IMG/VR virus record: IMGVR_UViG_3300033144_005004 | Coordinates: 1 to 30,445 of that record | Direction: 5' to 3' (one strand) | DNA: 30,445 nucleotides | From: a virus | Shown here: positions 2,369 to 30,445 of the stretch, one piece after another | Layout of the letters: the number at the start of each line of letters is the position of its first letter | Numbering within the stretch: the stretch's first letter is position 1 | The notes under the pieces: generated by a model | Databases searched by the model: none | Seen by the model: the letters and a program-made list of their open reading frames with translations, nothing else | What the model was told of the DNA's origin: nothing | Made by a program: the position numbers and the translations under genes

Positions 2369-2642
2369 TTTTTAGCCCCCTCAAATATTCCTCAAATGCC
2401 TCTGCCTGCCTTTCCGTAACATCAAATTCCGCCGTATGGTTAGTATGGTCGCCGAAACACAAACCCGCACAGTTAAAGATTGAATTTAGAAATAAAGGAA
2501 AACGCTCTCGGTTGTAAGCATTATTTTTTAAGCAATGGTGGAATGAATGTATTTTCGCCGTGCAATCTTTTCGCCAGCAATACCCGCTCGTTGCGTTATA
2601 AACTGCTTCTTTTACTTCAGGGCTAAATGTTTTGAATTTCAT
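2358..2642 (-). CDS. HNH/treble-clef-like small protein, catalytically doubtful
   Basis: 94 residues. The pattern GYCWRKDC, then FHHCLKNNAYNRERF, then FNCAGLCFGDHTNH, then a C-terminal 'AFEEYL' helix resembles phage proteins with an HNH/treble-clef core, in which the His pair and the closing CxxxH hold metal and active site. The second zinc pair is irregular (C.GLCFGDH), so it may bind DNA or zinc without cutting. Its ATG at 2642 overlaps the TGA of the homing endonuclease gene upstream. It does not share the NUMOD3 region of the three homing enzymes in this window and looks like a resident early gene. Confidence 0.55.
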   Translation of the reverse strand: MKFKTFSPEVKEAVYNATSGYCWRKDCTAKIHSFHHCLKNNAYNRERFPLFLNSIFNCAGLCFGDHTNHTAEFDVTERQAEAFEEYLRGLKNGE

Positions 2643-3466: not shown

Positions 3467-3481
3467 TTTTTCCTCACTATA

Positions 3482-3510
3482 AGTATAACACGAAATGTTC
3501 ATTTTGTCAA
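3482..3510 (-). promoter_or_regulatory. Consensus sigma70 promoter of HNH copy 1
   Basis: On the minus strand: TTGACA (3510-3505), a 17-bp spacer, TATACT (3487-3482). Both hexamers are at or one base from consensus. Initiation is expected near 3475, giving a short leader with a GAGG site before ATG 3466. The same hexamers and spacing precede HNH copy 2, so the mobile gene seems to bring or recreate its own promoter. Confidence 0.75.
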
Positions 3511-5132: not shown

Positions 5133-5148
5133 TTTTTCCTCCCCATGT

Positions 5149-5784
5149 TTAATTACTTAAATGACATTCGTGGCATAATGTTATTCCATTATACAATGTA
5201 TATCTCAACTTCGGGTAATTTTTCCAACTTTTTAGGTGATGGCCTTCAAGAATAACATTGTGTCCTTTTCTGCTTCTATCTTTACATAATTGACAAGTCC
5301 AGTTATCTCGCTTGAATATTTTTGCTCGCCAATTCTTATATTTAGATGAAGATGCATCCCGTTTTTTCCAAAGCCTTTCTCCTCCTTTCCAACTTTGATG
5401 ATTTTTTCCTCTTAAATATTTATATCTACATTTATTACTACAAAACTTTGCATATCCTATTTTTATTCTTACTTTTGGAACATAAAAAATATTATTGCAG
5501 TTTTCACATATTCTTCTTGCCTCTCCACCCTTCCAAATAGGATTATTACTTTTTAATCTAAAATGCTTAAAATATTTATTGACACATCCCCGATTACAAA
5601 AATTTCCCGCCCCTTCATATCCTTTATATGCCCTTTCCTTTATTCCACTTAAATATACAAAAAATTCTTTTCCACATTGTTTACAAACCCTTTTGACCTT
5701 CTTTGATTTACGAGGCGAGGAAGCCAGCAAAGACAAACCTCGCCCCGACTTGGTTCTTTGTGTATTTTCTGCTGGCTTTTTCAT
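5149..5784 (-). CDS. HNH homing endonuclease (copy 2)
   Basis: The start is given as ATG 5784 because the promoter at 5795-5823 would begin the transcript near 5788; the in-frame ATG at 5793 lies upstream of that. The 211-residue product has two zinc knuckles (CKQCGKEFFVY with a later FCNRGC; CENCNNIFYV with FCSNKC), 'W(K)GG' linkers (NPIWKGG, NHQSWKGG) and a C-terminal HNH: KRDNWTCQLC, LEGHHLKSW, NGITLCHECH. Same family as the copies at 2639 and 27061. It lacks clear NUMOD3 repeats, so target recognition rests on the knuckles. It separates the Spo11-like gene from the frameshifted nuclease gene. Confidence 0.82.
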   Translation of the reverse strand: MKKPAENTQRTKSGRGLSLLASSPRKSKKVKRVCKQCGKEFFVYLSGIKERAYKGYEGAGNFCNRGCVNKYFKHFRLKSNNPIWKGGEARRICENCNNIFYVPKVRIKIGYAKFCSNKCRYKYLRGKNHQSWKGGERLWKKRDASSSKYKNWRAKIFKRDNWTCQLCKDRSRKGHNVILEGHHLKSWKNYPKLRYTLYNGITLCHECHLSN

Positions 5785-5794
5785 ATCTATCATA

Positions 5795-14010: not shown

Positions 14011-14395
14011 CAGTTTCCCCGTCCCCCGCACCAAGCCCGGCCCCAAGCCTACTCATGGATGGCAAAAGGGGCAATCAGGGAATCCTTTAGGCAGGCCGAA
14101 GAAGCCGGAAATTGAGCAATTGAGGAAGGCGCTGGCGGAGGCGAAGAAGGAGAATAATAATCTTGATTTTCTCACAGTTTTTGTAAATAAGGCATATACC
14201 GACGAGAAATACGCAATTGCATTATTCAAGAAGATTATACCGGCAGAGGCATTTATTACGAAGAGGACTGAAAGGTTAACTGTTAATTTCAAAGGCAAGT
14301 TAGATAAGAACAATAAACCTACAGATGTAGAGCTTGTTAGTGCTGAACAAAAGCCTATAGAAGTGGAAGAGATAAAGGAAAATGGAACAGTTTAA
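13994..14395 (+). CDS. DUF5681-domain protein in small-terminase position
   Basis: 133 residues; ATG 13994 overlaps the previous gene, with GTG 14000 as a close alternative. The sequence GWQKGQSGNPLGRPKKPEIE (residues 22-41) is the DUF5681 signature, a basic loop frequent in phage and element proteins next to terminase genes. Then a charged helix and a tail of about 60 residues. Overlap of 14 bp with terL and the position directly upstream suggest the DNA-recognition (small terminase) role; this is inferred from context. Confidence 0.65.
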   Translation: MRVENNSFPVPRTKPGPKPTHGWQKGQSGNPLGRPKKPEIEQLRKALAEAKKENNNLDFLTVFVNKAYTDEKYAIALFKKIIPAEAFITKRTERLTVNFKGKLDKNNKPTDVELVSAEQKPIEVEEIKENGTV

Positions 14396-15746
14396 CGATA
14401 CAGAGGTAGTATTTTACGGAAACGATACCCCGACGAGAGAACAAAAGGCATTTCATAATGATACACACAAATATACTTTAATCGGCGGTGCAAAATATGG
14501 TGGAAAAAGTAAAGCTATTTGCTGGGAAGTATATAGATTATGTATGGAATACCCTGGCAATTATGGGTTTATGGGGCGTAAAAGAGGAACTGATTTTAAG
14601 ACATCCACTTTAAGAACATGGTTCAGAGAAATTCCTGCAGCTGCTTATGAACACAAGAAACAGGAGCATCGTATTTTATTTCCAAATGGTTCTGAATTTT
14701 TTTATGGCGGTCTTGATGATAGAGAGATGGTAGAAAAGTTCAACAGTATGGAACTTGGTTTTTTCGCTCTTGACCAGGCGGAGGAGATGAGTCCGGATGA
14801 TTGGAGGGCTATAGCGGGGACGTTAAGGTATGTTCTCCCGGATGGCACTCTTCCGCAATTCAGGGGTATGTTATCCTGTAATCCCCGACAGGGCTGGGTA
14901 AAGGATAAATTCATTCTCCGGCCGCATAAGGATTATAATTTCATACAGGCGCTTCCGGCATCGAATCCATCTCCAGGGGCGCCGGCTTATATCGAATCAT
15001 TAAAAGAACTTTACCAAAATAAACCCCGGTTATTGAGGGCATACATAAAGGGCAGCTGGGATGATCTTGAGGCAACCAACACTCTTATCCCCTATAAGAC
15101 TATAAATACAGCGGTAAATAGAGTACTGGTAAAGCCTCTTACTAAAGAGCCGGTTATTATATCCTGTGATCCTGCGCGTATGGGTGATGATGAAACAGTA
15201 ATTTATGTTTTCCGGGGCTTAAAAATAATTGATTTTATGTATTATGGAAAGGTTAACACTATGCAGACTGTTGGAAATATAATCAGGCTTTTCAAGCAGC
15301 ATAAAGCAAATATCATTATTATAGATTCTGTAATTTTTCCGGGAATAGCAGACCGGTTAATGGAACTGGAATATCCTACAATTGCGTTCAACGGAGCCGA
15401 ACAGGCTACAGATCCTATCAAATATAAAATCGGCAAAATAAAAATGGAAATGTGGGACATTGTTTTAGATAAATTTGTTGATAATAAAATATCGATTATT
15501 GATGATGAACTATTAAAGAGCCAGTTATCAGCAATGACTTACGAGATAGCGTCGGACACCGGAGTTAAAATGACATCTAAAAAAGATATGAAAGCTGCTC
15601 TGGGAAGGAGCCCTGACCGCGCCGAGGCATGTGCGATGGGTATATTCTGTCATTCACAACTTGATCCGGATGACTATCAAGAAGAGTCGGATGAGCGGCC
15701 GCCAGAAGATATGGAACAAGCCGTCGGCCGCATAGGATATGGATGA
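14382..15746 (+). CDS. terL: Terminase large subunit
   Basis: 454 residues, a complete packaging motor. ATPase: Walker A GGAKYGGKS (35-43), Walker B FFALDQAEEM with Asp131 and catalytic Glu134/135, then coupling motif region 'LSCNPRQGW'. Nuclease of the RNase H fold: ISCDPARMGDDETV (Asp263), IIIIDSVIFPG (Asp315), SPDRAEACAMG (Asp412), all catalytic acids present. It translocates DNA into the prohead through the portal and cuts the concatemer. Overlaps the upstream small gene; a 31-bp gap separates it from the co-chaperonin gene. Confidence 0.95.
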   Translation: MEQFNDTEVVFYGNDTPTREQKAFHNDTHKYTLIGGAKYGGKSKAICWEVYRLCMEYPGNYGFMGRKRGTDFKTSTLRTWFREIPAAAYEHKKQEHRILFPNGSEFFYGGLDDREMVEKFNSMELGFFALDQAEEMSPDDWRAIAGTLRYVLPDGTLPQFRGMLSCNPRQGWVKDKFILRPHKDYNFIQALPASNPSPGAPAYIESLKELYQNKPRLLRAYIKGSWDDLEATNTLIPYKTINTAVNRVLVKPLTKEPVIISCDPARMGDDETVIYVFRGLKIIDFMYYGKVNTMQTVGNIIRLFKQHKANIIIIDSVIFPGIADRLMELEYPTIAFNGAEQATDPIKYKIGKIKMEMWDIVLDKFVDNKISIIDDELLKSQLSAMTYEIASDTGVKMTSKKDMKAALGRSPDRAEACAMGIFCHSQLDPDDYQEESDERPPEDMEQAVGRIGYG

Positions 15747-15777: not shown

Positions 15778-16134
15778 ATGTTAATGTGTTCATTTATTGA
15801 TGAGAAGGGGGATTCTTTAACGCTTTTTAAAAAAAACATTTTGGTTCGAATGGAAAAAGTAAAAGAAAAAACAAAAAGCGGAATTGTTTTGCCTGAAATG
15901 CGACAAGAGGTTCTTCAAGGTAGAATTGACAAGGGGAAACTTTTGTGTTTGGCGGAAGATGTAACTGCAGAAGATTTTGGTTTGAAAGAATTCAAACTTG
16001 AAATTGGTGATGTAATTTTCGTACACAGATATGCGGGTATAGAATTAGAAATTGACGGGCATCCACACAAAATTGTTAAAGCTGAAGACGTGTATGCCTG
16101 CCTTCGAAAGGCAGAAGATAAGGTTAAGGATTAG
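15778..16134 (+). CDS. GroES-like co-chaperonin (T4 gp31-type role)
   Basis: 118 residues, ATG 15778 with AGGAGG upstream. After 18 extra residues comes the Cpn10 fold: 'KKNILVRMEKV', the mobile loop EKTKSGIVLPEMRQEVLQG with the IVL tripeptide (36-38) that docks on GroEL, 'KGKLLCLAED', 'FKLEIGDVIFVHRYAGIELE', and 'HKIVKAEDVYACL', all in GroES order. It would cap the host GroEL to fold phage proteins. The position between terL and portal, ahead of the capsid gene, fits a capsid-folding role like T4 gp31 or RB49 CocO. Host GroES is usually about 97 residues. Confidence 0.85.
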   Translation: MLMCSFIDEKGDSLTLFKKNILVRMEKVKEKTKSGIVLPEMRQEVLQGRIDKGKLLCLAEDVTAEDFGLKEFKLEIGDVIFVHRYAGIELEIDGHPHKIVKAEDVYACLRKAEDKVKD

Positions 16135-16147
16135 GAGGAAAAATAAA

Positions 16148-18103
16148 ATGTTAAAATTATCACCGGAAGAGGAATTACAGATTGTTAGTTTTTACAAAAC
16201 GCTCATTGATGAACGGGTAAAAAGCAATGCGACATTAACTACCCAGATTATTCCCGAGATGTGGGAAAGGCATCTGGGAACGTATAGCTCGAAGAAAAAT
16301 AAGAACTTTCCCTGGAAGGGGAGTTCGGATGTTCACGTCCCTTGGGCTGCATTTGCGGACACAGCGTTAGAAAGTAGGTTTGTGGCAGGGGTTCATAGTT
16401 CTGATAAACTCGTAGCCATAGACGGGCTATCGAATTCTTCAAAGGAAGGTGGAAGAAAAGTAACAAAGACTTTTAATTACAAGCTTGCTAAAGTGATGAA
16501 TTTATATAATGTCATTTGTGATTTATTCCAGGGACTGATAGTAGAGGGTACGCGGTTTCTTGAAATCTATCCTATAGAAACGGAAAAGACAGTTTGGCGG
16601 TATGAGGGGATAAGGAAATTGGTAGGTGGAGTTTCGAAGTTTCTTGGTTTTGATATCGATAAATCTACGAATCGTTTAATATCAAAAAAGAAACCCGTTA
16701 AATTTTGGATGCCTAAGTGGGATGATATTTCAGTCAGGGATTTAGTTTGGGAAAAGGGAGCAACTTCAATTCAGGACGCTCAATGGGTCGCTCGCTGGCT
16801 GCATCTTAACACTTATCAGATTAAGAAAAAGAAAAACTGGGTAAATTTGGATAAGTTACCAGCGGATATAAAGAAAAGTAAGAATGACGAAACAGAAACA
16901 GTTATCAACGAACATATCGGGGATATGGACGCCCAGATGCATTTAGATTTTAATAATGTTTCAATATGGAAAGTTTGGGGAGCATACCCTTTTAAGACGG
17001 GGAAACAAGATGAACAGGGTAGAGATATTGTGGAAGAAAGAGAATGTCAATTTGTTCTTGATATAAAGAACAATATTTATCTGCATGGTGAGGAGAGCAA
17101 ACTTTCAGATAAGAGGAAACCGCTTGTATCAATTCCCTGTTATCGTATTGCCGGGCATATAAGAGGGCAGGGCCTACCGCAGAGATTATCTATGATGAAT
17201 GATGAATTAGATGCTACACATAACGTAACAATAGACAATGCAATTTTGTGTAATGCCATTACTATAATGTACGTCCCGAGCAAAGGATTTAAGCCAACGA
17301 AAACGGTTATAAGGCCTGGTGCTACAATAAAAGTCAATAACCTTGAGGGGGTGATGAAGGTATTGGAATTAGGACATGCCAATCTTGATTTACACAAACT
17401 TGAAGGTTTTATTGTAACACTGTTAGAGAAGCTGGGAATGATAACTGATTATTCCATGGGAAGGGAACAGGTTCAACGCCCGACGGTAAGAGGAACAATG
17501 GCACTGTTAAGAGAGTTCAATGTCAATGTCAATTTCCTTTTAAAGAATATACAGGAAGGTTTAACGGAAGCAGTCCGGATGACTCTATTGACTCTTTATG
17601 AGTTTATGCCGTCTGACGGTATCCCGTTTATTGGAGAGGATGGAAAAGAAGATAAATTGACGAGAGATGATTTAGAGGACATTGATGATATGACTGTAAC
17701 GGTTCTTGCAGAAGCAATAAGGGCAATTAAAAATACTGCTATAGAAAAGGCAGCAATTCTATTCGATAATCTATCGAAGGATGAAAGCCTTGAAATCAAT
17801 ACTGCGGAAGTTAAGAAGAACCTTGTGGAAGAAGTTGACCATAAGATGGTAGAGAAAATCATCAGGGACCCGAAAGAGATACAGGAAATCCAGCAAGCGC
17901 AGCAGCAGATTATGCAAAAGATACAGGAACTGAAAGAGAGGGAGCGGGAACTTGTTATCAAGGAGGGGATGGCCGGCGCCGAGGATTATAAAAAAGAACT
18001 TGAAAAAGCGGGAGTACCTAAAGAAGAAATAGAGAAAAAGCTGGTAAAGTATAGAGAATCTTATATCGAGGCAAATGCGGAACCAGAAGGAGGAGAAAAA
18101 TGA
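16148..18103 (+). CDS. Portal protein
   Basis: The start is ATG 16148 (MLKLSPEEEL) with GGAGG 8 nt upstream; the frame runs further back into the co-chaperonin gene. 651 residues. 'NFPWKGSSDVHVPWAAFADTALESRF', 'LFQGLIVEGTRFLEI', 'SIPCYRIAGHIRGQGLPQRLS' and 'MITDYSMGREQVQRPTVRGT' follow the plan of large portals of short-tailed phages: clip and stem in the middle, crown at the end, with the last 100 residues a charged coiled coil. It forms the dodecameric ring through which TerL packs DNA. Confidence 0.85.
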   Translation: MLKLSPEEELQIVSFYKTLIDERVKSNATLTTQIIPEMWERHLGTYSSKKNKNFPWKGSSDVHVPWAAFADTALESRFVAGVHSSDKLVAIDGLSNSSKEGGRKVTKTFNYKLAKVMNLYNVICDLFQGLIVEGTRFLEIYPIETEKTVWRYEGIRKLVGGVSKFLGFDIDKSTNRLISKKKPVKFWMPKWDDISVRDLVWEKGATSIQDAQWVARWLHLNTYQIKKKKNWVNLDKLPADIKKSKNDETETVINEHIGDMDAQMHLDFNNVSIWKVWGAYPFKTGKQDEQGRDIVEERECQFVLDIKNNIYLHGEESKLSDKRKPLVSIPCYRIAGHIRGQGLPQRLSMMNDELDATHNVTIDNAILCNAITIMYVPSKGFKPTKTVIRPGATIKVNNLEGVMKVLELGHANLDLHKLEGFIVTLLEKLGMITDYSMGREQVQRPTVRGTMALLREFNVNVNFLLKNIQEGLTEAVRMTLLTLYEFMPSDGIPFIGEDGKEDKLTRDDLEDIDDMTVTVLAEAIRAIKNTAIEKAAILFDNLSKDESLEINTAEVKKNLVEEVDHKMVEKIIRDPKEIQEIQQAQQQIMQKIQELKERERELVIKEGMAGAEDYKKELEKAGVPKEEIEKKLVKYRESYIEANAEPEGGEK

Positions 18104-18538: not shown

Positions 18539-19405
18539 ATGTTACCAGGAGAAGAAGTTAAGGTTGGCCCCGACGGAAAACCCATTGAGCCCGCGGTAGC
18601 GGCTCCGGGAACTCCACCGGCTACCCCACCTGAACCAGAAACGAAACCTGGGCCTACCACTCCCGCCACGCCACCGGCCGAGAAACCACCCGATTGGTTT
18701 TTAGGCGATAAGTATAAAACCATCGAAGAACAGGCAAAAGGCGTAAAGAGTGCCGTCCAGGCAGAGAAGGCAGCGGAATTAGAAGCGAAGGCATTACGCG
18801 AAGAGAGGGATGCATTGATTGCGGAGAAGGCAGCTATGGTACAGCAGCAGCAATCTTTGGAAAATCCCACAGATGAATTAATCACCAAGATGGAGGCTAA
18901 GTTTGGCAAGCCGTTTGCGCAGATTAAAGCGGAAGCCGACATGCAGGCTGTTTTGATTAAACAGCAATTAGCGCCAGTCAATCGCGTAATTTTGGGGCAG
19001 CAATACGAATCTACTCTTAACCGAATGGAGCAGAGTAGCGAAGTATTTAAGAAGTACCGCCCCGCAGTTGAGGCAAAGTTAGTAGGAAAGACGATAGAAG
19101 AAAAAGCCGATTCCCAAGTGATTAAAAGCGCTTGGAATGAGGTCATAGCCGAGAACATAACGGCTATAAGAGAAGAAGCTATAGCAGAGGGAAAATCTGC
19201 TGTAACTGCTGCTCCGTCTCCTGCCCCAGAGACTACGCCTACGGGAAAAGAAGTTCCGCAACCCAAGGTAAAAATTAATCTATCAGAGCAAGAACAGACT
19301 TACTTGAAAAGAGTTGGAGGAAATCCCGAAGAAGTTGAAAAGTTTCATAACGAAAATCTCGCAGCCGCGCGTGGAAAAGAAACCGGCTGGGAAAATGTTC
19401 TGTAG
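18539..19405 (+). CDS. Scaffolding protein
   Basis: 288 residues, ATG 18539 just after GGAGG. N-terminal 45 residues Pro/Thr/Ala-rich and disordered, then 'PPDWFLGDKYKTIEEQAKG', the usual opening of phage scaffold/head-assembly proteins, then a long Ala/Glu/Lys coiled coil (about 75-215) and a C-terminal helix-turn 'LSEQEQTYLKRVGGNPEEVEKF' of the kind that binds coat protein. Position between portal and capsid agrees. The scaffold guides prohead assembly and leaves before maturation. No protease motif was seen. Confidence 0.75.
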   Translation: MLPGEEVKVGPDGKPIEPAVAAPGTPPATPPEPETKPGPTTPATPPAEKPPDWFLGDKYKTIEEQAKGVKSAVQAEKAAELEAKALREERDALIAEKAAMVQQQQSLENPTDELITKMEAKFGKPFAQIKAEADMQAVLIKQQLAPVNRVILGQQYESTLNRMEQSSEVFKKYRPAVEAKLVGKTIEEKADSQVIKSAWNEVIAENITAIREEAIAEGKSAVTAAPSPAPETTPTGKEVPQPKVKINLSEQEQTYLKRVGGNPEEVEKFHNENLAAARGKETGWENVL

Positions 19406-20098: not shown

Positions 20099-20581
20099 AT
20101 GACCAAGTTTGAATGGGCAGAGGGAGATAAGATTACAAGATGGTATCCTGAAGCAGCATCACAGAGCTTTAAAAAAGGACAGCCGGTTTACAGTAATGCC
20201 GGCTTGCTTACGGAATGTGCTTCGGATAGTGTGGAAGTATTGGGAATTGCAGATGCAGATGCTTCAGGAACGACTAATACCTGGCTTCCAGTTATTTTGG
20301 CAACACCAAATACTGGGTTTGTAGGTACTACTACAAGTGCAGGTTCGGATGTAACACTTGCAGTAACACATATTGGCAAACTCTATGCATTGTATGAGAG
20401 TTCTAATACTGTTGCGGTTGATTTAGGAGATACTGATAACGATTGCATAAAACCGTATTCAGTTCACCCTGACTGCATACCTGATTCAGCATCGGCAACT
20501 TTGAAAAATTCAACTAATGGTATGGTTCTTTTTAAATTCATCGATGCAGTTATGCAATTCTGTGATAAGGAAATGTCGTAA
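20099..20581 (+). CDS. Capsid decoration-like protein
   Basis: 160 residues, ATG 20099 after AGGAGG. Beta-rich, Thr/Ser/Ala-rich sequence: 'SFKKGQPVYSNAGLLTECA', 'GIADADASGT', 'WLPVILATPNTGF', 'THIGKLYALYE', 'GMVLFKFID'. This is the pattern of small beta-barrel decoration or head-stabilising proteins encoded just before major capsid genes. No exact family named. It should coat the outside of the expanded head. Confidence 0.6.
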   Translation: MTKFEWAEGDKITRWYPEAASQSFKKGQPVYSNAGLLTECASDSVEVLGIADADASGTTNTWLPVILATPNTGFVGTTTSAGSDVTLAVTHIGKLYALYESSNTVAVDLGDTDNDCIKPYSVHPDCIPDSASATLKNSTNGMVLFKFIDAVMQFCDKEMS

Positions 20582-20614: not shown

Positions 20615-21526
20615 ATGATTAATACAGCAGGTGTAGCGTATCTTATCAGTAAGGATTATGATAAGGTATTTTTCGACAATTTTATGGCAGAAAGCCCGCA
20701 GTTTAAGGATCTTGTAAGAATCATTCCAAGCAAAGACAGTTACAATAAATTCGCGGGTTTTACAGGGGTAGGACTTGTTCCTAAAAAGACAAAAGGTGTA
20801 AACGCTATTTTCGCAACCCCTGTGCAGAAAGTGGCAAAGACTTTCACGTCAGACACATTCTCTCTCGGTGTAAGAATCGAGAAAGAAGCATTTGACGATG
20901 ACAAGAGCGGCAACTTGAGGCAGATTCCGGCCATGCTGGGAGATTCCGCAAATGCTACGATAGAAACGGGTATTGCGGCTATGTTGCTCGACAGAATGCA
21001 GACGGCGGCCTATACCGGTCCTGATGGAAAGGTTCTTGCAGCAACGGACCACCCTCTTTACGGTTCAAGTTCAAGCACAACTTATTCCAACAGACCCACA
21101 GCTAACGTTGACCTTTCGGTTTCTGCAATAGAAGCAGCCATTCCGGCATTGAGAACAACCAAGAATGACCAGGGTATTTCAACAGGGATGAAGGCGAGAT
21201 ATCTTGCTTGCCACCCGGATAACTGGGCAATGATTATTCAGTTGCTGCAGAACCAGGACAAAGCAGGGACAACGCAGAGAGATACCAACGCCATCAAGAC
21301 GTTGGGCTTAACTCCGATTCTTCTGGAACACGCAACAGATTCCGATGCATGGGCTATAATGACAGACAAGCAAAAGCACCAGATCATGCTCGTCATGAGA
21401 GAAGCTATCAGCACGAAAACGTATCCCGCGCCTGACAACACAGACGACGCTATCTTCAGAGTTCGGTTTAGAAAGACCGAGGGCTGGGTGAGTCCATTGG
21501 GCTTCTACGGTTCAGCTGGAATCTAA
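20615..21526 (+). CDS. Major capsid protein (Mu gpT-like, HK97 fold)
   Basis: 303 residues, ATG 20615 after GGGAGG. N-terminal helical arm ('FFDNFMAESPQFKDLVRIIP'), E-loop part around 'KKTKGVNAIFATPVQKV', then 'ATDHPLYGSSS..YSNRPT' and 'DLSVSAIEAAIPALRTTKNDQG', 'ARYLACHPDNWAM', 'LGLTPILLEHATDSDAWAIM' and 'RFRKTEGWVSPLGFYGS'. These follow the Mu-type gpT capsid family, whose spine helix and P-domain are arranged in that order. No cleavable N-terminal domain, consistent with a separate scaffold. Confidence 0.85.
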   Translation: MINTAGVAYLISKDYDKVFFDNFMAESPQFKDLVRIIPSKDSYNKFAGFTGVGLVPKKTKGVNAIFATPVQKVAKTFTSDTFSLGVRIEKEAFDDDKSGNLRQIPAMLGDSANATIETGIAAMLLDRMQTAAYTGPDGKVLAATDHPLYGSSSSTTYSNRPTANVDLSVSAIEAAIPALRTTKNDQGISTGMKARYLACHPDNWAMIIQLLQNQDKAGTTQRDTNAIKTLGLTPILLEHATDSDAWAIMTDKQKHQIMLVMREAISTKTYPAPDNTDDAIFRVRFRKTEGWVSPLGFYGSAGI

Positions 21527-21598: not shown

Positions 21599-21892
21599 AT
21601 GAATTTTATTAGGATTTCACAGTTTGAAAATTCCAAAGAGAAAGTTGCGGCCGAGAAGAAATATGAAGAGTTAAGACTCGTAAGAGAAGATAATCTCTCA
21701 AAGGCAGCATCCGCAGGTTACAAAAAAGTTGATCCCGAGATTACAGTAGGCGCTAATAGGGAAGGAATCATGGGTAACGAAATTACTTCTTTAGTGCTTA
21801 TGGGAAAAATTAAGAAAAGAAAATCTGCAAAGAAGCCGGCTAAGAAGAAAGCAAAAAGCAAACCGAAGAAAAAATCAGGGAGGAGAAAATGA
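21599..21892 (+). CDS. Small head protein with histone-like lysine tail
   Basis: 97 residues, ATG 21599 after GGAGGAG. Residues 1-68 are mixed helical; residues 70-97 are almost only Lys/Ala/Ser/Arg/Pro (KKPAKKKAKSKPKKK), like histone H1 tails. Such a tail binds DNA or the negatively charged inner head. Could be a minor head or DNA-condensing protein. Overlaps the next gene's start. Confidence 0.6.
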   Translation: MNFIRISQFENSKEKVAAEKKYEELRLVREDNLSKAASAGYKKVDPEITVGANREGIMGNEITSLVLMGKIKKRKSAKKPAKKKAKSKPKKKSGRRK

Positions 21893-22368
21893 GGAAATTA
21901 CTTACGATAATCGGTTGTATAGGATTGGTAATTCTTTTCACCGCGGCGATAGGAGACCAGTTTTCCGTTGATAACTTCAGAATAGACAGTTCTGGAAATG
22001 TGATACAGACAGGTAAGGATTATACAACGTCAGGGAATGTTGATGTCAACGGCTCGTTATTGTTAGATGTTATGTATATCTCTTACAATTCAACTCTAAC
22101 AGTAACACAGTCCGGGCTTGTTATTTCCACAGGTACTGCAGCTTTTGCGATTGGACTGCCTACGGCTGTTGGTAATACAGGATTGACTTATACCGTTAAG
22201 TTAGATTCAGGACCGGTTCCTGTTTACGCCATTACTATTACTCCACTTGGTGCGGAAACAATAGATGGGGAAACTACCAATGCTCAAATAGATGCGTGGT
22301 ATGATTTTATAACCATTACCAGCGATGGAGACGAATGGCTTGTTACCGGAATAGATACCGGGATGTAA
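21889..22368 (+). CDS. Secreted-type beta protein with signal peptide, fibre-like
   Basis: 159 residues, ATG 21889 after GGGAGG. Signal peptide: MRK, hydrophobic LLTIIGCIGLVILFTAAIG, likely cut near residue 22. The mature part starts 'FSVDNFRIDSSGNVIQTG' and ends 'TITPLGAETIDGETTNAQI' and 'YDFITITSDGDEWLV', the glycine/threonine beta style of phage fibre tips and of cell-surface proteins. First of seven signal-bearing genes in the tail region. Role likely structural; attachment point unknown. Confidence 0.6.
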   Translation: MRKLLTIIGCIGLVILFTAAIGDQFSVDNFRIDSSGNVIQTGKDYTTSGNVDVNGSLLLDVMYISYNSTLTVTQSGLVISTGTAAFAIGLPTAVGNTGLTYTVKLDSGPVPVYAITITPLGAETIDGETTNAQIDAWYDFITITSDGDEWLVTGIDTGM

Positions 22369-22386
22369 GAAAGAAAAAGGAGTTAA

Positions 22387-22578
22387 ATGGCAAAAAGAAC
22401 GACGCGTCAACATAGTACTGCCAGCAGGAGAACCTATAAGAGGCTTTTCAGCAAGGGGGGTGCTGTAAAATGTAGTCGCTGTGGTGTATATTATCATCGT
22501 CATAAAAGCAAAGATATTGTAAAAACCAAAAATGGGTGGTTATGTGTAAGTTCTTGCCTGGACCCCCAAGACGTTTAA
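22387..22578 (+). CDS. Small zinc-knuckle protein
   Basis: 63 residues, ATG 22387 after AAGGAG. Basic N-terminus (KRTTRQHSTASRRTYKR), then KCSRCGVYYHRHK and CVSSCLDPQD: four Cys (CxxC + CxxxC) for zinc. No signal peptide, unlike both neighbours. Small treble-clef or ribbon proteins like this are found in phage head-tail regions. Function unknown. Confidence 0.6.
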   Translation: MAKRTTRQHSTASRRTYKRLFSKGGAVKCSRCGVYYHRHKSKDIVKTKNGWLCVSSCLDPQDV

Positions 22579-22592
22579 TTTGAGGAGGAAAA

Positions 22593-23369
22593 ATGTTTAG
22601 AAAAATAGTGTTGTTTTTGTTTTTATGTGGTAATTTGTATGCAGGATATGTAATACATACAGATAGAGACGGAGATGTTCAGGATATAACCTCAAACGGA
22701 GCAGCAGTAGTTACAGAAGGGAGTTCTTACAGTTCCGCACAATCAACGAGAACCACAAATGCCTTTTCAATGTATGTAGTGGGGGGAGACACAACAACGG
22801 CGGTAACCTTCAAAAGATTTGTTTCATCAATGTCTATAACTTCTACTGACGGGCTTTATCCGGGAACGACTTGGGTTAGTTATGCAGGGACTGTAGAGGC
22901 ATTTGTTGCTACCCTTAACGCAGTTCCTACCACTACTCTTGGGGCGGAAGGCGGGATTACAGCAGTGATAAATTCTAAATGTTATGAAGGTGAATTAGCA
23001 ACTGAAATAACAGCAAATACTACGGCGACAAATTGCCATAGTTCTACGCATACGGTAACGTTAGGACTTGATAATGTATTGGCAATAATTGAGAAGTTAG
23101 ATGCGCCGAGTTCAGGGAAACAGTATTTCGTAACCGATTGTGAGGTGAATGTAACTTTCGCCACAGGAATTACTAAACTTTATATTAGAGATGGGACTGC
23201 TGATGACAGCACTCTTAAATACCGGCAAATAATCGGAACAACGATAGTTGATGAGACAATGGATGTTTCTCTCGTCGTGGGTTCTGCAGATACTGCTTTA
23301 AGATTTGAAATTATTGGAAGTTCGTGGATTAGCGCCGGCGATTTTTTCTATACAACATATCAAAAGTAG
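22593..23369 (+). CDS. Signal-peptide-bearing virion-region protein
   Basis: 258 residues, ATG 22593 after GAGGAGG. Clear signal peptide MFRKIVLFLFLCGNLYA followed by GY, a standard A-x-A type cut (LYA). The mature protein is Thr/Ser/Val-rich and beta in character; its last 90 residues ('GKQYFVTDCEVNVTF', 'LYIRDGTADD', 'LRFEIIGSSWISAGDFFYTTY') resemble the jelly-roll-like ends of phage capsid or fibre proteins. Three mature Cys. Exact role unknown. Confidence 0.6.
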   Translation: MFRKIVLFLFLCGNLYAGYVIHTDRDGDVQDITSNGAAVVTEGSSYSSAQSTRTTNAFSMYVVGGDTTTAVTFKRFVSSMSITSTDGLYPGTTWVSYAGTVEAFVATLNAVPTTTLGAEGGITAVINSKCYEGELATEITANTTATNCHSSTHTVTLGLDNVLAIIEKLDAPSSGKQYFVTDCEVNVTFATGITKLYIRDGTADDSTLKYRQIIGTTIVDETMDVSLVVGSADTALRFEIIGSSWISAGDFFYTTYQK

Positions 23370-23382
23370 GGGGGATAAAAAT

Positions 23383-24162
23383 ATGAAAATATTTTTTATC
23401 CTTTTACTTTTCTGCACAGAGGCATTATCTCTAACCCGTTCTGAAATGCGAAGCAAGATAAGGGATATGTGTCTGGATGCCGGTTCTTCAAGTTCAAAAC
23501 AGCACTGGTCTTCTACAACTTTCAACGGATATATTGATACAGCAATAAAGGAATTTGCGGCAATCACTTGGTGTCAAAAAAATTCTTATGAATTTAAAAT
23601 ATCCACTAAACACGGAAGTCCGATATATGCTCTACAGAGTGATGTAGCAAATATAGAAAGAGTTACTATACATACTACAGGCGACGGTGCTGATGTTTCG
23701 GAAAAAGAAGATTGTGTAATTTTAGAGGAGACGAGCGTAGATGAACTTGATAGGGATAATGGGGGTTGGGAATCAAATTTCTCTACGTATTCTTATGGTA
23801 ATCATGGTACGCCTACTCATTACTATACTTATCAGTCTACAGGAACTTACCTTAATATAGGATTTAAACCACCGACTAATTCTACATTCACTATTACAAT
23901 CTATTATGATGAGATTCCTGATGATATGTCATCTGACACAGATACTGTAACCGGCACTCCATTTAGAGGGATAGCACAACTTGAACCTTATCATTTTTTG
24001 ATTTGTCTGAGGGTAGCGAGTATTTTTGCGGCGTTTGATGAGCGTCCGGCATTATCGAAATTCTATTTTGCACAATACGACGCACTTTTGAGAGAAGCAA
24101 TAAAATCCCTCAGCTGGAAGTCGAACTTTTCTGAAAATTTCAGTTACGACAGAGGGGATTAA
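23383..24162 (+). CDS. Head-tail adaptor-like protein with signal peptide
   Basis: Start ATG 23383 (MKIFFILLLFC) after GGGGGG; the longer frame begins inside the previous gene. 259 residues. Signal peptide 1-16 (MKIFFILLLFCTEALS). The rest follows phage adaptor (head-completion) proteins: 'TRSEMRSKIRDMC', 'FNGYIDTAIKEFAAIT', 'ITIYYDEIPDDMSSDTD', 'IAQLEPYHFLICLRVASIF', 'YFAQYDALLREA'. Adaptors bind the portal inside the cell, so a Sec signal is unexpected. TAATG overlap with the next gene. Confidence 0.68.
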   Translation: MKIFFILLLFCTEALSLTRSEMRSKIRDMCLDAGSSSSKQHWSSTTFNGYIDTAIKEFAAITWCQKNSYEFKISTKHGSPIYALQSDVANIERVTIHTTGDGADVSEKEDCVILEETSVDELDRDNGGWESNFSTYSYGNHGTPTHYYTYQSTGTYLNIGFKPPTNSTFTITIYYDEIPDDMSSDTDTVTGTPFRGIAQLEPYHFLICLRVASIFAAFDERPALSKFYFAQYDALLREAIKSLSWKSNFSENFSYDRGD

Positions 24163-27050
24163 TGCTTCGTATAGCATTTGCAGTTCTCGTCTTTGTGTCA
24201 ACAGCGTCGGCAGAACAGCACTTACTTAATAAATTCACAGGTGGATTAAATACAAAGATATCTCCCATTCTTCTACCAGAAGGGAGCACTCCCGATTGCC
24301 AGAATGTTTTGTTTGATGATACAGGCGGAGTTAAGAAAAGAAAAGGGTATAAATACATAGGATATTCCACTTCTACAACGGTGGGGACAAAGTTATTTCC
24401 GTTAGCGAGGGCTTCGGGTGCGAAGTTTTTATTTAAGCAAGCGGAAGATGAATTGTGGGTTTCGGTTACGGGAGCGGATGGCAGTTGGACGTTACTGCGT
24501 TCCGATTTACGGTGGCAGGTAAATAATCTAAATTCTGCGGTTATCTCCAATGACAGGTGGTTTGCGAATGGTATTGATTATATCTTTTCTTCTAACGGTA
24601 GGACTTATGACGAATATACGTTTATTCCAAAAGGAAAGTTCATAACCTCAAAAGCGGAAGGGAGTTCGGGGATTTTATATGACAGGGTTTTCGTGGCGAA
24701 TACCTACGATTATCCTTCAGGGGTTTCTTACTCTGATTTGGCGTATGCTCCGACTGATAGTGATGCGTGGTCGGATTTACAGATATTCTTGGTGGGTGCT
24801 TCCGACGGGGAAGTTATTACAGGACTGTATGTTTGGAAAGGGGATTTGTATATCTTCAAAACCCGTTCCGTTTGGCGGTTGGCGGGAAACTCTCCTGATA
24901 ATTGGGTGTTAAGAAGATTGACGAGAGAATACGGTTGTGCGGAACAGGGAACAATAAAAGAATATAAGAATATCCTTGTATTCTTATCAAATGAAAAGCG
25001 GGCGGTTGTAGGATTTGACGGGAGTTTCTTTAAGGAACTTTCAGAACCGATAGAACCTGATTTAGATAATTGGGATAATCTTGACGGGTATTACAATTAC
25101 TGGATACAAACAGTTCAATCAGATTTTACGGCGGGAAAATCAACGGGACTAACGGTTTCGGATTATTTGGTATTAGAAGATGTAAGTAAGGTGTGGAGCA
25201 GTTCGGCGACATATCCGACGGCGTTTTCAAGTGGGACATATTCTAATACTTCTTATTCTGTTGGTGTAAAATTGGATGACATAACTACATCTATAAGTAG
25301 CGAATCATCAGATTATATAGTAGATATGTTTATGGCGAAAGTAGATGCACATCCTGATAATATAGGGACAGAGCATATTATCTATACTAATCCTTCCCAT
25401 ATTTATGAAGACGATAACAAAAATGCAACTACTGACGAATGGGTAACTAATATAATAAATTTTCCGTGGCAAAGGTATTATGGTTCAGGGGCAATTATAG
25501 ATATATCATTAACGGATGGCATATATACTAAAATTTCTTTTAAGGATATTGGATATAAATTTAATTGGCAAACACCTTCAGCGGACGCTAAAGCATATAA
25601 TTTGTATTGTTCTGGTCATTATCAGGCATATATTTACTATATGAATTTGTCAACAAATAAATATCAATTAGTTACTTATCCTTCTTTAGGTTATACTGAT
25701 AGGATATATGCAAATGATACATCCCTCACCAAATTTGTAAGCAAGAGTAGAGATGTAATTTTCACACCTGTTGAAACAAATGCCTTTAGAATAATAATAA
25801 TGGCGCAGTATTCTTCTCCGTGGGGTATTAGCGGTTTAAGGGCAACAATAACACCTATCAATGCAATATTAGTTTATGAAAAAGATGAGGCGGCATTTGA
25901 GTATGAAACATCAGGCACATTCAAAACAGAAGAATACGATTGGGAAGGACAAGTTTATTTGAGCACGGCAACTTTTGATGTTACAAGTTATGATTATTGG
26001 GGAACGACGATAACTCATTTAATCCGTTCTAAATTAACTGATTGGACAACCTATTACCCGATAAGCGACGGACAGGCGATTCCGAGCCAACTCTCCCCCT
26101 GTCAATATGTAGAGGTTTTATCAAGTTTCACGACGATTTACAGTTCTTACACGCCGACTTTACATTCAATAGAAGTCGGGGCTGTAAAGTCAACAGGTTC
26201 GTGGGAAAGTGATTGGTTTCAGGCAGATAAAGTTACTGGTTGGAAATACGGTATTTTTGATGATGAAACGCCGTCAGATACGGGAATATCTTATGCGGTG
26301 AGGACAGCGAGTTCAACCGCTAATCAGAGTAGTGCTTCGTGGGACTGGTTATCTTCAGGGGATTTATTAGACGCAGGGGTTCATCCTTCTTCTCATACTT
26401 ATATTCAGGTTAAATCAACAATGGCAACGACGAATGGGATTAGAAGTCCGACGATGTTTTCTACCACGTTTTTATGGTATCCCGAAAGTGAGCCGATAAG
26501 ACCTTGTTCGGGGATTGTAGATAAAAGATATTGGCTTGGAATTTCCACGACTTCCGCAGAGTATAACGATAACATTTATATTTTAGATAAGAATATGGCG
26601 TGGACGAGATATTCGGGATATTTTCCTTCTGATATTGTGAACTGGAAGAATGAAACGTATGTATTGGACGGCTCATCTACGGCGATTTGGCAGGTAAACT
26701 ACGGGAATGCTGATAAGTGGTGTAGTGCGGCTTCAAGTTCTACAATATCCTCATATTGGACGAGTAAGCCCCTTTTTCTTTCTCTGGATAGAGAAACTAC
26801 CTTAAAGTTACTTTATGCGTCATTTGGGGCTACTGGGGGCGATATAGCGGCAGGATTTGCCTTATACCCAGACGCATTTACCGAATATACGGTGTCTTTG
26901 TCGGGAAGTCGTGAAATCAATGATAGGAAAGGAGTTGATACAGGTGAAATGGGGAAAATCTGGCAATTTAGAATTTACGATGACAGTTCGGAAGCCGCTT
27001 TCCAGTTTAATAATTTGACTATTTTTTATAAAATTAAACCGTTGAGATAG
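24162..27050 (+). CDS. Large tail hub / stopper-like protein with signal peptide
   Basis: 962 residues. Signal peptide 1-18: MLRIAFAVLVFVSTASA, then E-Q. Directly after it comes 'FTGGLNTKISPILLPEGSTP', 'CQNVLFDDTGGVKKRKGYKY', the well-known opening of phage tail-tube/hub proteins of short-tailed phages, followed by blade-like repeats ('LYVWKGDLYIFKTRSVWRLAG', 'KNILVFLSNEKRAVVGFDG'). The C-terminal half is Ser/Thr/Tyr-rich beta. Probably the main tail-shaft protein. The family normally has no signal peptide. Confidence 0.7.
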   Translation: MLRIAFAVLVFVSTASAEQHLLNKFTGGLNTKISPILLPEGSTPDCQNVLFDDTGGVKKRKGYKYIGYSTSTTVGTKLFPLARASGAKFLFKQAEDELWVSVTGADGSWTLLRSDLRWQVNNLNSAVISNDRWFANGIDYIFSSNGRTYDEYTFIPKGKFITSKAEGSSGILYDRVFVANTYDYPSGVSYSDLAYAPTDSDAWSDLQIFLVGASDGEVITGLYVWKGDLYIFKTRSVWRLAGNSPDNWVLRRLTREYGCAEQGTIKEYKNILVFLSNEKRAVVGFDGSFFKELSEPIEPDLDNWDNLDGYYNYWIQTVQSDFTAGKSTGLTVSDYLVLEDVSKVWSSSATYPTAFSSGTYSNTSYSVGVKLDDITTSISSESSDYIVDMFMAKVDAHPDNIGTEHIIYTNPSHIYEDDNKNATTDEWVTNIINFPWQRYYGSGAIIDISLTDGIYTKISFKDIGYKFNWQTPSADAKAYNLYCSGHYQAYIYYMNLSTNKYQLVTYPSLGYTDRIYANDTSLTKFVSKSRDVIFTPVETNAFRIIIMAQYSSPWGISGLRATITPINAILVYEKDEAAFEYETSGTFKTEEYDWEGQVYLSTATFDVTSYDYWGTTITHLIRSKLTDWTTYYPISDGQAIPSQLSPCQYVEVLSSFTTIYSSYTPTLHSIEVGAVKSTGSWESDWFQADKVTGWKYGIFDDETPSDTGISYAVRTASSTANQSSASWDWLSSGDLLDAGVHPSSHTYIQVKSTMATTNGIRSPTMFSTTFLWYPESEPIRPCSGIVDKRYWLGISTTSAEYNDNIYILDKNMAWTRYSGYFPSDIVNWKNETYVLDGSSTAIWQVNYGNADKWCSAASSSTISSYWTSKPLFLSLDRETTLKLLYASFGATGGDIAAGFALYPDAFTEYTVSLSGSREINDRKGVDTGEMGKIWQFRIYDDSSEAAFQFNNLTIFYKIKPLR

Positions 27051-27060
27051 GAGAAAAATA

Positions 27061-27753
27061 ATGCAAGGATTTCAAAAGGGAAATACTCCTTGGATGAAAG
27101 GAAAACATCACTCTGTAGAAGCAAAGAGAAAAATGAGGGAAGGACACAAAGGGCAACTTCCTTGGAATAAGGGGAAAAAAGGGATTTCTGAAGAAACAAG
27201 GATAAAAATGAGGGAAGCAAGAAAAGGAAAATCTTATCCAAAAATGTGTAGAGTTGTGAATGGGGAAAATAATCCTAATTGGAAAGGTGGTATAAGTAAA
27301 ACAAAAAGAATATGCAAATTTTGCGGTAAGGTTTTTTATACACGAATGGCGAGAATTAAAAAGGGGAGAGGAAAATTTTGCGATAAGCAATGTTATGGTA
27401 AATGGAGAAGCGAAAATATAAGAGGTGAAAAATGTTCATTTTTTGGGAAACATCTAATTGGTGAAAAAAGTCCACGTTGGAAAGGGGGGATAGATTTTTG
27501 GGATAGACGAGGTTCAAACAATGAAGTAAAACTTTGGCGAAAAATGATATATAAAAGAGATGGTTATAGATGTGTAATATGTGGCAAAACCGGTGGGAAA
27601 TTAAACGCACACCATATTAGAAGTTGGAAGGATTTTCCAGAATTGAGGTTTGATATAGATAATGGAATAACAATGTGTCAAAGTTGCCACGAATTAGTTT
27701 ATAGGGAAACACCATTATTCGCAATAAGAAAATTAGGAATGAAAAAATGTTAA
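27061..27753 (+). CDS. HNH homing endonuclease with NUMOD3 motifs (copy 3)
   Basis: 230 residues, ATG 27061 after AGGAG. NUMOD3 repeats come first (NTPWMKGKHHSVEAKRKM, LPWNKGKKGISEETRIKM), then a NWKGG linker, a knuckle pair (CKFCGKVF, FCDKQC), a second 'SPRWKGG' and a C-terminal HNH: KRDGYRCVICG, LNAHHIRSWKDFPELRFD, NGITMCQSCH. All HNH residues are intact. It lies between the hub and fibre genes and overlaps the next start by 7 bases. Unlike copies 1 and 2 it has no visible promoter of its own. Confidence 0.87.
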   Translation: MQGFQKGNTPWMKGKHHSVEAKRKMREGHKGQLPWNKGKKGISEETRIKMREARKGKSYPKMCRVVNGENNPNWKGGISKTKRICKFCGKVFYTRMARIKKGRGKFCDKQCYGKWRSENIRGEKCSFFGKHLIGEKSPRWKGGIDFWDRRGSNNEVKLWRKMIYKRDGYRCVICGKTGGKLNAHHIRSWKDFPELRFDIDNGITMCQSCHELVYRETPLFAIRKLGMKKC

Positions 27754-28742
27754 GGAAAATAATTTTAATTTTACTTTTTGTTTCTATAATTAAAGCCGAC
27801 GTGCCGTTTCGTATTCCTCGTGATATTGAATTGGAACGACTGCCGGCAATTCTCAATCGTAATTTTGATGAACTTGATAGAAGAATTAAAAATGTGAAAA
27901 CAAAAACCGTAGAACTCGGGTTCAGCACCGGCACGATAGCGACCGAAACAATGGATAAAACCCTCTGGGCTCGGGATGTCCGGACAGAGCAACGCCATAC
28001 TCTTATAGACGACGACGTTCAAGGGCAACTGTTCGAAAATAGTTTGGAAAAATTATCACGGGGGATAAACGGGGAAGCGGCGGTTTATAGGACTTGCGTA
28101 ATGGATACTTATTGGAATGGTTGTAATGTCAGAGTAAGCACAGGCGGGCGATTGGCGATAACTCCTTCGGGGTTGTTTGATGTAACGACGGATTTTGCGG
28201 GGTTAGTAGCGTCGGACAATAATTATAAACTGATAGTCATTGATACTTATACTCTTAATGTAGGGGCGATTTTCGGTGGTTCTACGGATGGAATTGGTGT
28301 TTCAGGTTATACGGATACAAATTCGGGAACAGGGGTTCAGGGATATGCTGAAAGTGCGGGGACAGGGGTTAAAGGAGAAAGCACATCTATTGGGATAGGA
28401 GTTCAGGGAGTTAGTGCGGCAGGCGGGACAGGCGTTTCAGGGGAATCCGACGGAACTGGTAACGGAGTATATGGATATAATCCTGATTCAGACGGTTACG
28501 CAGGTTATTTTGAAGGCAGAGTAAATGTTGAAGGTGATTTTACTTGCGACGCAGGGACAGTCCCATATTCTCTGAAATCAGGAACAGCGACCTATGCGGA
28601 AAATGTAACGATTGGAGCAATAGGGACTTATCTTGATTATATTTTAACTTATTATGATGATGAAGTTTATAAAAGCGGGAGTTCACCGCTTTTTGCAGGG
28701 GTGCTGATTTTCAATGGAAATGTTTTATACCATAAACCGTAA
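27747..28742 (+). CDS. Tail fibre with signal peptide and glycine repeats
   Basis: 331 residues. Signal peptide MLRKIILILLFVSIIKA then D-V. An N-terminal helical part ('ERLPAILNRNFDELDRRI') is followed by a beta region and six or so 11-12-residue repeats around 'GTGVQGYAESA', 'GTGVKGESTSI', 'GIGVQGVSAAG', ending 'GYAGYFEGRVNVEGDF', a motif common in trimeric fibres and bacterial surface proteins. C-terminal 'GSSPLFAGVLIFNGNVLY'. Likely a receptor-binding fibre. Its first 7 bases overlap the homing endonuclease gene. Confidence 0.65.
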   Translation: MLRKIILILLFVSIIKADVPFRIPRDIELERLPAILNRNFDELDRRIKNVKTKTVELGFSTGTIATETMDKTLWARDVRTEQRHTLIDDDVQGQLFENSLEKLSRGINGEAAVYRTCVMDTYWNGCNVRVSTGGRLAITPSGLFDVTTDFAGLVASDNNYKLIVIDTYTLNVGAIFGGSTDGIGVSGYTDTNSGTGVQGYAESAGTGVKGESTSIGIGVQGVSAAGGTGVSGESDGTGNGVYGYNPDSDGYAGYFEGRVNVEGDFTCDAGTVPYSLKSGTATYAENVTIGAIGTYLDYILTYYDDEVYKSGSSPLFAGVLIFNGNVLYHKP

Positions 28743-29637
28743 AGTATTTGCCTTATTATTTTTGGCAAGTGTTTGCTCCGCAGATATATTGCGGAAGTCA
28801 ACTATCCCGTATTCAGGGACTGGCGATTATAGGCAAGGCATAATTTATGTAGATACTCCAACGGTAAATTCGGAAGCGGTGAATAAAGGTTACTTAACAC
28901 AAGCAGGGTCAAGTGTAACTTATGCGGATAATGCAGGGACTGTCGGCGGTTTTCCTTACGACGCTTTTGTTTCCACAATGGGTGATACAATGAATGGAAC
29001 ATTATTTATATCTTCAAGTATTGAAGGGAAAGGTAGTAATTTAGATTTCAAGTATAAAACTTCCGCACGATTTTATTTTCAAGATGTTTCTGCTACTGAC
29101 CCCGTTTTTCATTTAGAAGAGAATAGTGCCCTCATACGAACTTTCTTGAGAGTTTATCCGACTTTTGGTAGTTCAAGTTATTTAGGATTGAGTAATAATG
29201 GGTTGACTTGGGATGTATTAGGGTTGGAGGGCGACTATGACGCAAACATAGATTATTCAGGTGCAAATAGTAGAATTGATATTTCAACAAATGTAAAGAT
29301 GAACGGGAGTTTAGAAGTAACCGGAAATACTACAATAACAGGGGGGAAATTAACCCTTTCTGGGGGCGGAGATAATTTATTGGCGTGTGATATTATAGAA
29401 TTGACTTCAGGGGGATATATTTATACTCCAAAAATATTTACTTATGGTTCAATGACTATTCAGACACCAGAGGAGAAAACTTTAGTTACATACGATACAA
29501 TATATGGTGTTAATTTTAGCACTTCAGTAGCAATAACAGGTATGAAAACAGGAACAACGCAGGCAAATGCAGGGGCGGGGGAAGGGGAACTCTGGGCTGA
29601 TAGCGATGATGATTATACTATCAAATTGGGGCAATAA
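28714..29637 (+). CDS. Tail fibre-like protein with signal peptide
   Basis: Up to 307 residues from ATG 28714; ATG 28720 is a near alternative. Overlaps the previous gene by 29 bp. Signal peptide: 'NRKVFALLFLASVCSA' then D. The mature part has fibre features: 'TYADNAGTVGGFPYDAFV', 'DTMNGTL', 'LEVTGNTTITGGKLTLSGGG' and a final 'GAGEGELWADSDDDYTIKLG'. This modular style marks phage fibres with changeable tips. Probably joins the fibre system with its neighbours. Confidence 0.62.
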   Translation: MEMFYTINRKVFALLFLASVCSADILRKSTIPYSGTGDYRQGIIYVDTPTVNSEAVNKGYLTQAGSSVTYADNAGTVGGFPYDAFVSTMGDTMNGTLFISSSIEGKGSNLDFKYKTSARFYFQDVSATDPVFHLEENSALIRTFLRVYPTFGSSSYLGLSNNGLTWDVLGLEGDYDANIDYSGANSRIDISTNVKMNGSLEVTGNTTITGGKLTLSGGGDNLLACDIIELTSGGYIYTPKIFTYGSMTIQTPEEKTLVTYDTIYGVNFSTSVAITGMKTGTTQANAGAGEGELWADSDDDYTIKLGQ

Positions 29638-29647
29638 TGGGGGTGTA

Positions 29648-30445
29648 ATGAAAAAAATAATAATAGGTTTATTCTTTGTGGGGTTTTTATGGGCGGGTGA
29701 TGTAGAGACGATTTCGCCAACGCCTGTGGGGACTTGGGATTTTCAGGGTGGAACAGTTAAAGTTACAACACCAACGGCAAATGAAAATCCGGTTAATTTA
29801 GGATATTTCCTTTTAACTGGTTCTACTATTTCCTATGCAGTAAACGCAGGGACTTCGGTTTATTCCGTCACTTCCGGCACGGCAGGGTGGGCTTATAACA
29901 GCGATAAACTTGACGGCGAACACGGCTCTTCTTACGGCGTGAAAGATGATATTGGAGTTTCCACGGCGGCAAATGCGGCGGCACTTGACGCAGAGATTGC
30001 GGAAACCGATACAAACTTCACAATTGTAAATAGTTCTTTGACTGGCATACACGACAATTACGCACAAACAAACGCAACGACTTCTTGGACTGGTGATAAT
30101 ACATTTAACGGTATAAAAATAAATGCTGGAAGTTATGTAACAAAAATAAAAGGCGGGGAGCAAACGGGAAATATAGTTTATACTCTTCCTATTTCTACCG
30201 ACGGGGTTGTGGGTTATCATTTACAGTATTCATCTTCGGGAGCATTATCTTGGCAACCGCCTGAATTAGTGGGAGTGCAGAATTATTATTACAGCACACA
30301 AACTATAAACGGTGATTATGTAATGTATTCTTCTCATTCTGCGGTATCAGAAGGGACGATTTCAAAGACGATAACGGCAGATGTTATTCTTGGAACGTGG
30401 ACTACACTTTCGGGTTATCCAACAGGGGACGCTATTCCTGCGGGG
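29648..30445 (+). CDS. Tail fibre-like protein with signal peptide, cut by window edge
   Basis: ATG 29648; the frame is open to the last base (266 codons visible). Signal peptide MKKIIIGLFFVGFLWAG. Then 'VGTWDFQGGTVKVTTPTANE', 'YAVNAGTSVYSVTSGTAGWA', 'NSDKLDGEHGSSYGV' (the 'LDG' element of long tail fibres), 'NNTFNG'-type turns and 'GYHLQYSSSGALSWQPP'. Shares its opening style (SYA.NAGT) with the previous gene, so the two are probably related fibre subunits. Confidence 0.62.
   Translation, partial: MKKIIIGLFFVGFLWAGDVETISPTPVGTWDFQGGTVKVTTPTANENPVNLGYFLLTGSTISYAVNAGTSVYSVTSGTAGWAYNSDKLDGEHGSSYGVKDDIGVSTAANAAALDAEIAETDTNFTIVNSSLTGIHDNYAQTNATTSWTGDNTFNGIKINAGSYVTKIKGGEQTGNIVYTLPISTDGVVGYHLQYSSSGALSWQPPELVGVQNYYYSTQTINGDYVMYSSHSAVSEGTISKTITADVILGTWTTLSGYPTGDAIPAG

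Follow-up and report, generated by a model that had tools for sequence, protein, structure and literature searches.

The usual view of tailed phages is that they are put together in the cytoplasm and that, as soon as the DNA has been packaged, the portal is sealed by the adaptor; in the known podophages it is the adaptor together with the nozzle that closes the portal there. Virion proteins made with Sec signals are known from filamentous phages, whose pIII and pVIII carry them and are assembled from the membrane, but these phages are unrelated and non-tailed, all their virion proteins are membrane proteins and there is no filled head. Among tailed phages, several Sec signals have been described in P. 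gingivalis prophages, where they belong to unknown genes, to spanins and to the N-terminus of a capsid protein, a presumed target of the prohead protease (PMC10367356).

The stretch analysed here in full, referred to as the window, is the linear IMG/VR record IMGVR_UViG_3300033144_005004 (30,445 bases). Its genome shares with the tails of Kuravirus SU10 and T7-like podophages the outline gene order capsid, adaptor, nozzle, fibres and ejection proteins. A second record, IMGVR_UViG_3300033388_004179 (G001, also L009; 46,066 bases), is 100% identical to the window over the 12 kb compared and is circularly permuted, with its break inside the hub gene; being the same sequence in permuted form, it supplies the genes located past the window end.

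Signal-like N-termini in the tail block

The first-pass annotation had claimed Sec signals on seven genes downstream of the capsid gene. All seven open reading frames begin, as claimed, at an ATG, and their products open with basic residues, a hydrophobic core and, usually, an alanine at the predicted −1 position (in what follows, a slash marks the predicted cut). The fibre-like tail protein of 21889..22368 (+; 159 aa) has a longer signal-like segment with a core of 18 residues (residues 1-20, 21889-21948; MRKLLTIIGCIGLVILFTAA) and a homologue at 8122 in the relative L059 described below. It is followed by a 258-aa protein (22593..23369, +; signal residues 1-17, 22593-22643; MFRKIVLFLFLCGNLYA/GY) for which no convincing Pfam or PHROG family was found, by the head-tail adaptor (23383..24162, +; 259 aa; signal residues 1-16, 23383-23430; MKIFFILLLFCTEALS/LT), whose domain starts at residue 19-20, and by the tail hub or nozzle (24162..27050, +; 962 aa; signal residues 1-17, 24162-24212; MLRIAFAVLVFVSTASA/EQ). 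Further downstream, the product of 27747..28742 (+; 331 aa; signal residues 1-17, 27747-27797; MLRKIILILLFVSIIKA/DV) has a counterpart at 12911 in L059 and had no match in phage records, and two fibre-like proteins are encoded at 28714..29637 (+; 307 aa; signal residues 1-23, 28714-28782; MEMFYTINRKVFALLFLASVCSA/DI) and at 29648..30445 (+; signal residues 1-16, 29648-29695; MKKIIIGLFFVGFLWA/GD), the latter cut by the window end and 743 aa long in G001. In G001 the signal-bearing run extends past the window end with at least one further carrier, a lectin-like protein of 239 aa (Laminin_G_3; MRIFLFLFFVSFAFA/EQ), and probably with a second, a small protein (MIKYLFIFLFLPLPLLA/ST). Predicted starts of the peptides after the cut are EQHLLNK, GYVIHTDR, DVPFR, GDVETISPTPVGTWDFQGGTVK and DILR. 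The cut site is weak at 23383 and at three others, and the hub signal at 24162 obtained the top cleavage-site score among all the genes scored in three genomes. The first-pass annotation had argued against one copied cassette, and recent copying is indeed unsupported: compared two by two, most of the signals were no more alike than expected by chance, a few slightly more so.

An HNH-endonuclease-like gene with repeated zinc-finger/NUMOD-like parts (27061-27753) interrupts the tail operon after the hub, and similar genes are found at 2639-3502 (−) and 5149-5793 (−). A 72-aa putative lipoprotein (MKKLIFLLLVFIFGC) encoded in the early region (201-419, −) may be a superinfection exclusion protein.

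The genes upstream of the series had been described as signal-free, and this held for packaging, portal, scaffold and capsid genes alike: the terminase large subunit (14382..15746, +; PHROG phrog_2, E 5e-30), a GroES-like co-chaperonin (15778..16134, +; phrog_3188, E 3e-14), the portal protein (16148..18103, +; phrog_1216, E 2e-13; kept in L059 and L060), a probable scaffold recognised by position and composition (18539..19405, +), a cement/decoration-like protein assigned by position (20099..20581, +; kept in L059 and L060, with a weak Phage_cement_2 match below the cut-off) and the major capsid protein (20615..21526, +; Pfam Mu-like_gpT, E 2e-12, and Phage_capsid_4, E 6e-10; 60% identical in L059) all lack a signal. 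Within the tail block itself, two small products are also signal-free, a 97-aa protein whose C-terminus is very basic (21599..21892, +) and a 63-aa zinc-ribbon-like protein (22387..22578, +) that has equivalents in the same position in L059 and L060. No signal was found on the three proteins in ejection position (212, 256 and 1570 aa), and across the three genomes with the trait signals are absent from packaging, portal, capsid and ejection proteins. The 1570-aa protein (L009:10498-15207) contains a sigma-70 region 2 (Pfam E 2e-7) and matches a family of RNA polymerase sigma factors in PHROG (E 4e-16), suggesting a sigma-like domain, which virions may deliver.

Given that signal-free homologues of these proteins begin near the start of the domain, one could suppose that the hydrophobic segments are spurious extensions and that the true proteins begin downstream. 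However, a Shine-Dalgarno-like stretch precedes all seven starts in the window, and no in-frame ATG, GTG or TTG with a Shine-Dalgarno of at least 4 bases was found in the next 44 codons of the seven genes, so that no product other than the one with the signal is well supported. Moreover, relatives of different sequence have the trait as well. We consider a start-codon error ruled out by the seven ribosome sites and the lack of a good internal one, and give it next to no credence.

Identity of the adaptor and the hub

Two of the carriers had been proposed to be the adaptor and the hub, and both assignments gained support. The product of 23383 matches Pfam SU10_adaptor (PF24175) over residues 20-239 (E 2.2e-12; 48.2 bits, cut-off 27), and its AF2 model (mean pLDDT 73) folds from residue 19, most of residues 2-13, within the signal, having a pLDDT below 50. 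The best PDB matches of this model were the portal-tail adaptors of GP4, cyanophage A4, VP1, SU10 and N4 (E 1e-6 to 1e-4), and these include solved podophage structures, in support of the assignment. The hub gene lies directly after the adaptor, as in HMO-2011-type phages, and its product has homology to annotated stabilisation proteins; the hub model is of low confidence (mean pLDDT 50.5), its 27 best PDB matches being nozzle or tail chains of short-tailed phages. Thus, the nozzle identity is established less firmly than that of the adaptor. In SU10 the corresponding proteins are adaptor gp11 and nozzle gp17 and in T7 gp11 and gp12, P22 gp10 being a further nozzle; the adaptor matches the SU10/T7-like tails in fold and in the SU10_adaptor family, and the hub, as far as its model allows, in fold.

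In both proteins the conserved domain begins only just after the predicted signal. Homologues of the L060 adaptor in Edwardsiella, Vibrio and Pseudoalteromonas phages align from residue 21-22, just past the signal, and tblastn alignments of hub homologues mostly begin at residue 24 or later. None of fourteen hub homologues from elsewhere (L061-L069 and the phage records L005, L006, L055, L056 and L057) has a signal, their N-termini ahead of the conserved GGLN-type motif being short or polar. Signal-like N-termini were found on the adaptors of the window, of L059 and on both copies of L060, and on none of the control adaptors; absence of such a signal is a usual, not a defining, property of the known SU10_adaptor members examined.

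Conservation of the trait in two divergent relatives

Single-protein scans with the adaptor, capsid, portal and terminase returned the same genome only, as did a scan with a portal pair, and a terminase pair retrieved mostly C. difficile-type prophages. A two-row hub profile retrieved L059 and L060, together with the nine signal-free hub homologues L061-L069, and a 3-row portal scan found no additional lineage member. The three genomes with the trait are thus the window/G001, L059 and L060. Compared with the window, identity of the hub is 55% for L059 (over the matched part) and 29% for L060, and that of the capsid 60% and 35%, respectively. All the larger tail genes of both relatives carry signal-like N-termini, which begin at 8122, 8847, 9195 (adaptor), 9935 (hub) and 12911 in L059, and at 410, 2214, 3204 and 4799, at 5135 and 5842 (the two adaptor copies), in the gene of ORF 6530 and at 9914 (hub) in L060. 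Hence the search of related contigs proposed with the original claim showed the signals to be kept, even though their sequences are very different. No ribosome site could be recognised at the adaptor and hub starts of L059.

Two features of these relatives deserve mention. The tandem adaptor genes of L060 (5135-5845 and 5842-6543) both carry the signal and one of the products may serve as a second ring, and the L059 terminase (381-2777) has a large intein-like insertion just after a Walker A-like GGSKGSGK.

To put numbers on the trait, we used a detector based on a simple hydrophobic-core rule; it is not over-generous, since of the 27 known signal peptides of E. coli used for calibration it flags only 14. 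Of the tail genes of the three genomes, 21/21 had signal-like N-termini, including one gene that has no K/R ahead of its core and another in which a Glu comes early. For genes of the structural module in ten control phages the figure was 1/187; these controls were SU10, T7, HMO-2011, Edwardsiella phage KF-1, a methanogen virus and five records from Manatee Spring, some of the ten covering partial regions. The sole positive among the controls was a small membrane protein of the methanogen virus vir526. With this difference, neither chance nor a trait common to podophage tail genes in general can account for the signals. The signal-like character of the N-termini is well supported by sequence, and the trait appears to have been acquired and then conserved by a single lineage, as an addition ahead of ordinary podophage proteins.

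Export, anchoring or retention

The 21 tail genes were then compared with the known signal classes. A lysine or arginine precedes the core in 20 of the 21, one of which has an early Glu too, the exception being the L059 hub. Core length had a median of 11 residues (range 7-24), where an h-region has about 7-15, and the 27 E. coli signals gave the same median. Small residues occupy −3 and −1, as in substrates of signal peptidase I: alanine is at −1 in 19 of 22 N-termini, and the (−3,−1) residues were better than those of shuffled c-regions, only 6 of 5000 shuffles being equally good. No lipobox (L-[AS]-[GA]-C) was flagged after the core in any tail gene and RR is absent from the 21 n-regions, leading us to discard lipoprotein (signal peptidase II) and Tat signals. 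Cysteine counts outside the adaptor and hub are often odd, so disulfides give no clear support for export.

From these data our main reading, to which we assign a probability of roughly 0.55, is that the N-termini are functional Sec signals and that the tail proteins are exported, cut by signal peptidase I and joined to cytoplasmic heads at lysis. Adaptor, nozzle and fibre proteins would be translocated by Sec across the cytoplasmic membrane, host signal peptidase I would cut off their signals, and folding of the exported proteins, perhaps also their assembly, would take place outside the cytoplasm. The capsid, the portal, the scaffold and the internal ejection proteins would stay behind, the head being built and filled with DNA in the cytoplasm, until the lysis functions of the phage open the membrane and filled heads meet the exported tail parts, the adaptor docking on the portal. 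That head and ejection proteins, which are necessarily cytoplasmic, have no signals fits this reading. If adaptor and nozzle are exported, filled heads need another closure device, and a cytoplasmic plug would keep them closed until joining; the signal-free products of 21599-21892, with its very basic C-terminus, and 22387-22578, zinc-ribbon-like, are candidate closure factors. Translocation, cleavage, late joining and the plug are steps that we infer.

As to lysis, the endolysin is an M15 peptidase without a signal, making holin-type lysis plausible, and a peptidoglycan hydrolase of this type points to a bacterial host. Downstream of it in G001, a lipoprotein-like gene (MKKYILLGVIGVFFLSSGC; L009:16652-17227) is a spanin candidate and as such would point to a diderm host. 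In search of the host, genomes were scanned for the topoisomerase, which hit one contig of an archaeal MAG, in whose genome a portal match was absent, and a tRNA search found none.

The same N-termini could instead act as uncleaved signal-anchors that tether the tail proteins to the cytoplasmic membrane, where heads and tails would be joined. T4, with its membrane-linked prohead assembly, offers a parallel in spirit. A few cores reach at least 18 residues, a length capable of anchoring, and long ones are found at 21889, at L059 12911 and at L060 410. Positive charge just after the cut can hinder Sec export, and the mature N-termini of all four adaptors have a net charge of +1 to +3 within the 14 residues that follow the cut, just past the core, which favours retention; the adaptor may accordingly be anchored, or exported inefficiently. 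Nevertheless, most cores are too short to span the membrane, and alanine at −1 together with the (−3,−1) enrichment is a feature of cleavage, so that the sequence features favour cleavable export over an anchor. In addition, an anchor with its N-terminus inside would still put the domain outside, making docking to a cytoplasmic portal no easier. We regard anchoring as unlikely, while giving it some weight.

The charge of the mature adaptors is also in line with a reading in which only the fibres are truly exported, for instance for surface display or superinfection control, the adaptor and hub signals being tolerated or inefficient. An unrelated siphovirus-like record (L051 / L089:2357-4730) contains three signal-like genes, one of them fibre-like, between connector and tail-tube genes that themselves have no signals, an example of signals confined to fibre-like or accessory genes. 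Such a restriction does not explain why adaptor and hub retain a signal in each of the three genomes, the second adaptor copy of L060 included, nor why the best cleavage-site score of the genes scored in them belongs to the hub signal at 24162, and we find it slightly less probable than anchoring.

Finally, the N-termini might never be exported and be kept in the virion as a hydrophobic collar, converging on the adaptor ring to form a seal or a ring active on membranes at infection. Against this, a collar has no need for a basic n-region, a signal-like length or cleavage-site statistics, small and lectin-like proteins of the tail block bear signals too, and SRP/SecA would generally be expected to take up nascent proteins with such N-termini. 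In its favour, the fibre N-termini and the nozzle platform of SU10 contact the helix-bundle domain of the adaptor (PMC9509320), so that retained hydrophobic ends would sit near each other. On balance, a collar seems to us quite improbable.

Discussion

If the main reading, export followed by late joining, is right, these genomes of uncultivated short-tailed phages would represent a lineage with two-compartment assembly, in which heads are filled in the cytoplasm, the whole tail is Sec-exported and matured outside, and virions are completed only at lysis. We advance this wider proposal tentatively, with slightly less confidence than the export of the tail proteins itself. Conservation of Sec signals in the tail module over such deep divergence would imply either a membrane that keeps heads apart from tails up to lysis or construction of the tails at a membrane. 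Either, if true, would be a new assembly route, and one has to ask what keeps filled heads closed. Either might also protect tails against those defences in the cytoplasm that prevent their assembly.

A full-text literature search, covering sources other than subscription journals and preprints, found no tailed phage whose tail module carries signals throughout, in agreement with the initial statement that no such series had been described. In SU10 and T7, unlike in the window lineage, no structural-module gene examined has a signal-like N-terminus. The Manatee Spring podophages MW202785, MW202796 and MW202601 and the methanogen virus vir526 have a similar module order and a related capsid, MW202601 also has a related portal, and three of the four records have a GroES gene. 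In the window this gene lies between terminase and portal (15778-16134), in two of the Manatee Spring podophages beside the portal and in the methanogen virus near the terminase. Yet the annotated structural genes of these viruses have no signal-like N-terminus, except for the one small membrane protein of vir526. The nearest known case is that of the P. gingivalis prophages, tailed phages with several Sec signals, which, unlike those of the window lineage, are not on a tail module.
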